Shown here: in pieces, positions 18,667 to 19,297 of the stretch
How positions within the stretch are numbered: the stretch's first letter is position 1
Layout: the number at the start of each line of letters is the position of its first letter
Virus record (IMG/VR): IMGVR_UViG_3300045912_000114
Span: 1 to 27,814 of that record
DNA: 27,814 nt
Source: a virus
Reading direction: 5' to 3' (one strand)
Notes under the pieces: generated by a model
Databases searched by the model: none
Told to the model about the DNA's origin: nothing
What the model saw: the letters and a program-made list of their open reading frames with translations, nothing else
Made by a program: the position numbers and the translations under genes

Positions 18667-19233
18667 ATGAGTTTATATTGCCCAGCATTGAATGATAACA
18701 TTAATGCTAACTGTTTGGGTTTGATGAGAGCTGGTATCAAAACACTTTATGCTGCTAACTTTGGTCAAGTATCAGCTATTTTGGATAACACTTTGACAAA
18801 AGAAGTGGATACTATCATAATGGCTACCAACCCTCTCACGTCTCAACCTTACTACTGGTATCGTATTGCATTTAAAAAAGATACAGCTGGTCTAGTTAAC
18901 GAACTAGCTGTTGAAGGTACTCGATATATCAATCAAACTTTTAACTTCTCTGTTGAAGGTATTACTCGTCAAAGTTTGGAACAACTAGAATTACTAGCTT
19001 CTGGTGATGTAGTATTTATCGCAGTAGACTATGAAGGTGTAGCTCACGTTATTGGTCGTCAAGGTGGTCTAAAAATGTCAACTATGAATTATGGTACTGG
19101 TACCGCCCTCGGTGATATGTACGGTGGTGAAATTGTATTTACTGGTGCTGAATCTGAATTGACAAACGTAATTGCTCCTGGTACAACCATTCAAGTATGG
19201 AATGGTACTAGTACTGACACTGTTACGTTCTAA
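18667..19233 (+). CDS. Putative major tail (tube) protein, 188 aa
   Basis: This gene follows the major capsid gene by 28 nt and shares its codon preference, so it is expected to be abundant. The protein starts with SLYCPALNDNINANCLGLMRAGIKTLYAANFGQV (landmarks: Cys5, Cys17 and Gly-Ile-Lys at residues about 23-25), then has alternating beta strands and a Gly/Thr-rich C-terminus, as in tail tube subunits. The fibre at 19359 opens with a comparable Cys-x-n-Cys...SGI start, hinting that both carry a related domain that stacks in the tail. It is the last gene of the capsid operon; its 3'UTR holds a complementary-leader motif and a strong terminator. Confidence 0.65.
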   Translation: MSLYCPALNDNINANCLGLMRAGIKTLYAANFGQVSAILDNTLTKEVDTIIMATNPLTSQPYYWYRIAFKKDTAGLVNELAVEGTRYINQTFNFSVEGITRQSLEQLELLASGDVVFIAVDYEGVAHVIGRQGGLKMSTMNYGTGTALGDMYGGEIVFTGAESELTNVIAPGTTIQVWNGTSTDTVTF

Positions 19234-19240
19234 TTATTTT

Positions 19241-19295
19241 AGTGTTTATTGGTTACTTAAGCTCTGGTGTCGTGATGACACTGGAGCTTTTTGTT
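19241..19295 (+). ncRNA. Candidate 3'UTR-derived regulatory RNA (antisense to gene leaders)
   Basis: Between the tail-tube stop and the terminator stem lies GTTTATTGGTTACTT (within 19241-19260). The strand read as RNA is perfectly complementary to 17 nt of the leader at 10065-10081, 15 nt at 12782-12796 and 15 nt at 25709-25723, each just upstream of a start codon. A pairing segment followed directly by a terminator hairpin is the architecture of 3'UTR-derived small RNAs. No promoter of its own is visible, so it would have to be processed from the capsid operon message. The function is inferred. Confidence 0.4.
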
Positions 19296-19297
19296 TT
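19261..19297 (+). terminator. Rho-independent terminator after the capsid/tail-tube operon
   Basis: GCTCTGGTGTC (19261-19271) pairs with GACACTGGAGC (19277-19287), an 11-bp stem with two G-U pairs around a GTGAT loop, followed by TTTTTGTTTT. This is the best-formed terminator in the window. Confidence 0.88.

Follow-up and report, generated by a model that had tools for sequence, protein, structure and literature searches.

What purpose could be served by a short stretch between a stop codon and a terminator that is complementary to the sequences just before several distant start codons of the same phage? This is the question raised by the window, by which we mean the whole stretch of 27,814 nucleotides that was analyzed. 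In the following sections, we describe the locus, ask whether the matches exceed chance, look for the same layout in other phages, and weigh the explanations.

The Genome and Its Setting

The first 203 nt of the window recur at its end with a single mismatch (1-203 versus 27612-27814), so that the genome is circularly closed, at ~27.6 kb. A large ORF from ~26386 crosses the end junction and stops at 523. The genes present include TerL (with an intein), portal, and DUF6712, and the window contains A-rich leaders and Bacteroidota-type promoters with a TATATTTG -7 box, one of which lies at about 10031, upstream of target leader 1 (Table 1). From these promoter, leader, and gene features, together with the relatives, we infer that the phage probably infects Bacteroidota-type bacteria. 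The sequence AAATATTGAGTATCG occurs at 9978-9992 and 26154-26168, with a variant near 25885, ~40-60 nt upstream of Bacteroidota-type -7 boxes, and is possibly an activator site.

Some of the gene labels deserve care. The preliminary description had called the gene next to that of the major capsid protein (MCP) a tail tube gene; this label finds no support, the sole match being phrog_19091, a family of unknown function. Homologs occupy the same place in L209, L523, L524, L526, L527, L121, and L530. The nuclease-like label of the gene at 10092-10583 comes from a PD-(D/E)XK-like sequence judged by eye, and searches of Pfam and PHROG with this gene gave no match. The TerL intein carries a LAGLIDADG domain and splits the P-loop (GRQVGK / TLTA); it begins with V, and we take it to resemble a class 3 intein. 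Because the intein splits the full TerL, the C-terminal extein was used as the query when searching for relatives by this protein. Single-protein scans with TerL, MCP, and portal for close relatives returned either none or one distant locus only.

A 3'UTR Complementary to Several Leaders

Downstream of the MCP-adjacent gene lies TTATTTTAGTGTTTATTGGTTACTT, followed by a strong hairpin and a T-run. The 28-nt 3'UTR (19234-19261) is antisense to several gene leaders of the window (Table 1), and the predicted terminator probably marks the 3' end of the RNA.

Table 1. Features of the anti-leader locus and its predicted targets in the window
Feature	Position	Strand	Remark
Target leader 1, 17-nt match	10065-10081	+	Precedes the nuclease-like gene (10092-10583), with 10 nt between match and ATG
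Target leader 2, 15-nt match	12782-12796	+	4 nt before the terL ATG (12801)
terL	12801-14996	+	Target leader 2 lies upstream
MCP-adjacent gene, phrog_19091	18667-19233	+	3'UTR holds the anti-leader segment
Anti-leader segment, AGTGTTTATTGGTTACTTAA	19241-19260	+	Mostly unpaired 5' of the terminator hairpin (predicted fold)
Intrinsic terminator, AAGCTCTGGTGTC-GTGAT-GACACTGGAGCTT and T-run	19259-19297	+	Predicted
Target leader 3, 15-nt match	25709-25723	+	Precedes a 27-aa ORF (25729-25812), with 5 nt between match and ATG
Target leader 4, TTAACCA-TAAACACTAAA, one-base bulge	26030-26047	+	Precedes a 33-aa ORF (26050-26151), with 2 nt between match and ATG

The three perfect matches given in the preliminary description were all found, as was its one-base-deleted variant before 26050. 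Its statement that one 15-mer recurs in three leaders needs correcting: exact copies of AAGTAACCAATAAAC are present in two of them (10067 and 12782, both on the + strand, with the inverted copy at 19244), but the core common to all three is only 12 nt (TAACCAATAAAC). The match of the third perfect leader (AGTGTTTATTGGTTA at 19241 against TAACCAATAAACACT) extends on the other side of this core, and the 3'UTR includes the union of the matches. Since the perfect leaders extend in different directions along it, the 3'UTR behaves as a hub.

Chance was assessed against dinucleotide-shuffled genomes. The + strand holds four sites of at least 12 nt that are antisense to the 28-nt 3'UTR, all of them leaders, and the - strand of the window holds none outside the anti-leader element itself. 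Shuffled genomes gave a mean of 0.185 such sites and a maximum of three; at a length of at least 15 nt, the real count is three and the shuffled maximum zero. The earlier judgment that the repeated copies are not due to chance is thus borne out. When leaders are ranked by RNA duplex energy, the four targets take the first four places (-23.2, -21.7, -20.6, and -19.7 kcal/mol), and the next leader reaches -14.8 kcal/mol. Only one other locus in the window has four distant antisense matches, namely an intergenic hairpin family (GGGGTGCAAAAA...TTTTTGCNCCCC) with copies at 10589-10641, 14997-15060, and 26294-26357.

In its layout, the element has what is seen in 3'UTR-derived sRNAs: it lies in a 3'UTR, a predicted intrinsic terminator comes right after the segment, and its complementarity to distant mRNAs exceeds chance and falls in the translation initiation region. 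It does not have the layout of cis-antisense RNAs of the OOP/sar type, as the targets are ~6.4-9.2 kb away and on the same strand. OOP, sar, and aQ each act on a single adjoining phage gene. No Rfam family scored above its gathering threshold in the window, L632, L229, L281, or L524.

Recurrence in Other Phages

A clade of 33-kb phages that includes L530 offers the most telling comparison, of one 3'UTR carrying another seed. Here, the gene 5' of the terminator and the MCP-adjacent gene of the window are members of one family (phrog_19091 at E 1.4e-17 and 3e-8; E 3e-9 in pairwise BLASTP), and in the homologous 3'UTR the terminator is preceded by TTTTGGTTGGTTGG, a seed unlike that of the window. 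Leaders in L530, L537, L544, and L558 carry the matching AACCAACCAA. In these phages, the + strand copies of AACCAACCA are leaders, with one exception, and the - strand copy, of which there is one per phage, is the 3'UTR. Leader and homologous 3'UTR sequence therefore differ in step between the window and this clade, a recurrence that independently supports reading the element as a putative RNA.

The related pair L229/L281 has the arrangement at another gene. Here, TTGGTTAAT lies in the 3'UTR of a holin-like gene and is antisense to leaders over 12-13 nt in L229 and 9-11 nt in L281; two of these leaders are orthologous between the two phages. A change from CCAAT to CCAAC in the leader is matched by one from ATTGG to GTTGG in the 3'UTR.

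Larger phages provide further cases. The 217-kb phage G154 has two antisense 3'UTR copies, one lying between a terminator and a gene whose product has a ribosomal protein S21 domain (PF01165), the other immediately 3' of a stop codon with no clear terminator. G152/G153 have one antisense copy, with a terminator directly after it. In the two large-phage groups, the antisense copies match motif-bearing leaders over long stretches. The cultured Cellulophaga phage phi38:1 has a terminator-proximal stretch that is antisense to three leaders over 20, 14, and 14 nt (shuffle mean 0.08 at 14 nt); its pairing sequence is AT-rich and unrelated to that of the window. The stretch is located at 36849-36886, and the three leaders are those of gp075, gp048, and gp024. 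As this phage is in culture, the claim can be tested.

Among 58 terminator 3'UTRs of related loci, six were antisense to leaders against one in the sense control (P <= 0.01), some of the six being of low complexity. The contrary sense case is the terminator 3'UTR at L523:6415-6452, which contains a 15-nt sense leader copy (ATCAAAAGATTTTCA). Several supporting cases were reached by following the motif, so that their number should not be read as an unbiased frequency. P12024S was considered as a further case and set aside; its P values are low, but the matches are A-rich low-complexity runs. The antisense layout was not seen in the first 50 kb of crAss001, and the antisense-leader test gave nothing convincing in phi46:3. 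A search for 8-mers enriched upstream of terminators gave a signal dominated by related contigs.

Conservation Among the Nearest Relatives

The nearest relatives of the cassette (L209, L523, L524, L526, and L527) have portal proteins 34-40% identical to that of the window, and the terminator is kept in all of them. L209, L523, L526, and L527, as well as the more distant L121, which also keeps the terminator, have no significant complementarity between 3'UTR and leaders. L524 is suggestive: the pairing spans 12 and 9 nt, and P is 0.008 when the testing of six relatives is left uncorrected. The opposite strand of L524, too, holds a 12-nt match. L209, the nearest long relative, has a leader motif of its own, GTACATACAATAAA/GGTACATACAATAAA, at about 7735 and 11135 (variant at about 18267), and no antisense copy of this motif was found in that phage.

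We also followed the gene family more widely. Where enough downstream sequence was available, a recognizable terminator followed the gene at 102 of 143 loci (a redundant set). In the 3'UTR test, in which near-identical 3'UTRs were tested once and many contigs were too short to include the target module, significance was reached only in the window, L524, L530, and P12024S, the last being of low complexity.

The preliminary description had held that leader and 3'UTR copies drifting independently in related phages would speak against the proposal, and that compensatory changes would speak for it. Drift is what part of the clade displays, four of the five nearest relatives being without significant pairing and L524 suggestive. 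Matched change is found in the L530 clade and L229/L281, but not in those same four relatives, where the complementarity does not reach significance. The broader claim, that of a 3'UTR element pairing with several leaders, thus stands on the window statistics and the other lineages but not on conservation in the nearest relatives. With significant pairing mostly absent there, either the anti-leader element is gained and lost quickly or it is used by a minority of these phages.

Weighing the Alternatives

The leader copies may be nothing more than a leader motif of Bacteroidota phages, concerned with translation or the 5' end, with the antisense 3'UTR copy being incidental or vestigial. A scan for GTAACCAATAAAC before ATG matched many phage contigs, and 17 of 99 non-redundant matches were true gene leaders compared with seven of 104 for the reversed motif. 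Leaders of the AACCAATAAA type recur in unrelated phages, so the motif is not private to the phage of the window. Some large phages reuse AACCAATAAA in about a dozen leaders each (15 copies versus 0 for the control in G152, 16 versus 1 in G153, and 15 versus 2 in G154), right after recognizable promoters and no more than 20-30 nt from the ATG. Since the motif is common in other phages, the presence of the leader copies does not by itself call for a 3'UTR partner. In some motif-bearing phages, a search for an antisense partner detected none, and the antisense copy is likewise absent from the nearest relatives. What this explanation leaves unaccounted for is the 17-nt antisense copy before a terminator, which is improbable by chance, and its recurrence in other lineages, including a homologous 3'UTR with another seed. 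We consider it unlikely.

Two further observations concern the motif itself. As a general host leader motif it was rejected: among the matches listed for 148 Bacteroidota chromosomes, TAACCAATAAAC followed by ATG was not enriched (28 versus ~27 for the reversed control). Promoters in the large phages are of more than one type, with a promoter-like TTGTAACTTTTTAAA-N-TCGTTATA and then AACCAATAAA upstream of many genes in L015/L078 (142- and 168-kb phages), and sigma-54-like promoters (TGGCAC-N-TTGC) before many leaders in L632 and L106 (217-kb phage G154).

A phage regulator might bind TAACCAATAAAC as DNA, irrespective of orientation, both at the leader copies and where the capsid operon ends; the preliminary description had named such a site as its alternative. 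All copies do have this sequence in common, and parallel change could mimic compensation in L229/L281 and L530. It should be remembered that matched changes of leader and 3'UTR do not by themselves separate RNA pairing from a DNA site, because parallel site change looks alike. Orientation is more telling. In each recurring lineage, the leader copies are sense and located at initiation sites, whereas the terminator-side copies are antisense (the one sense case among the 58 aside), directly 5' of terminators, and devoid of the promoter elements of the leader copies, which favors RNA-RNA pairing. In addition, two of the perfect leader copies of the window have no visible promoter adjoining them, and the sequence is not palindromic. 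A DNA site is, in our opinion, improbable.

Finally, the - strand of the 3'UTR copy does read in leader orientation, but the idea that it is the leader or promoter of an opposite-strand gene was rejected as hardly credible: the window has no start codon at leader distance, the antisense copies in other phages open no sizeable opposite-strand ORF (very short ones only), and the promoter elements of the leader copies are missing on that strand.

Proposed Mechanism

The explanation that we prefer, and regard as reasonably probable, is that a 3'UTR-derived, trans-acting anti-leader RNA blocks translation initiation of the tagged phage genes. The anti-leader segment would do the pairing in an RNA that stops at the terminator, whether this RNA is the 3' end of the capsid-operon mRNA or a small RNA cut from it. 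Such an RNA would pair in trans with four leaders, those of the nuclease-like gene, terL, and two micro-ORFs. Three of these would form 15-17 perfect pairs, and the fourth would form 18 pairs interrupted by a bulge. Pairing would cover 2-27 nt before the start codons and most likely prevent 30S loading, masking a leader region whose low structure favors initiation in Bacteroidota (PMC6847099). As capsid messages rise, the tagged genes would be turned down. The existence of the RNA, its action in trans, the repression, and its timing are all read from sequence; the simplest outcome would be that accumulating capsid message represses these four genes, and pairing may possibly have a stabilizing or processing role.

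A broader proposal is more tentative, and we would not put it quite at even chances. It envisages a widespread RNA regulon of Bacteroidota-type phages, in which AACCAA-type tags in 5' leaders are answered by an antisense tag before the terminator of a late or structural operon, the two tags co-diversify from lineage to lineage, and the tagged genes are shut down by the structural transcript once it is complete.

If true, phages would time or balance expression by a self-encoded antisense tag, beyond promoters and repressors, and leaders of the AACCAATAAA type would gain a regulatory partner. The window, the L530 clade, L229/L281, the large phages, and phi38:1 would then make up a natural series of seed/leader pairs for tests of RNA pairing, in a phylum whose ribosomes ignore Shine-Dalgarno sequences.

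Comparison with Known Systems

Both 3'UTR-derived small RNAs and phage-encoded antisense RNAs are already known (PMC13250501, PMC12197685). Literature searches found no phage 3'UTR that serves dispersed leaders through a shared tag and changes in step with them between lineages, which is weak evidence of novelty.

Phage-encoded regulatory RNAs reviewed to date include VpdS, PreS (LPR1), lambda OOP and aQ, P22 sar, and 24B_1 (PMC12197685). Like the candidate described here, they are encoded by phages and act by base pairing, and some block initiation of phage translation, such as P22 sar on ant. VpdS and PreS work through Hfq and have their effects on host mRNAs, and the review describes no single 3'UTR that serves several dispersed phage leaders with a common tag (PMC12197685).

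CisR, a small RNA from the prtV 3'UTR, inhibits the phage mRNA cep by pairing (PMC13250501). The likeness is that a pairing region in the 3'UTR of one mRNA acts on another. CisR, however, is encoded by the host, whereas here a single phage would supply both the predicted RNA and all of its predicted targets. These targets have in common a leader tag that is used repeatedly, and it is matched, perfectly and over a long stretch, by an RNA that is itself a prediction from sequence.

Initiation in Bacteroidota depends on mRNA structure and on A-rich positions upstream of the start, and the leaders are characterized by low structure and Kozak-like adenines, without the use of Shine-Dalgarno sequences (PMC6847099). 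The leader copies of the window sit in that same initiation region. These rules concern single positions and structure, whereas the feature considered here is a AACCAATAAA-type tag with a putative antisense partner.
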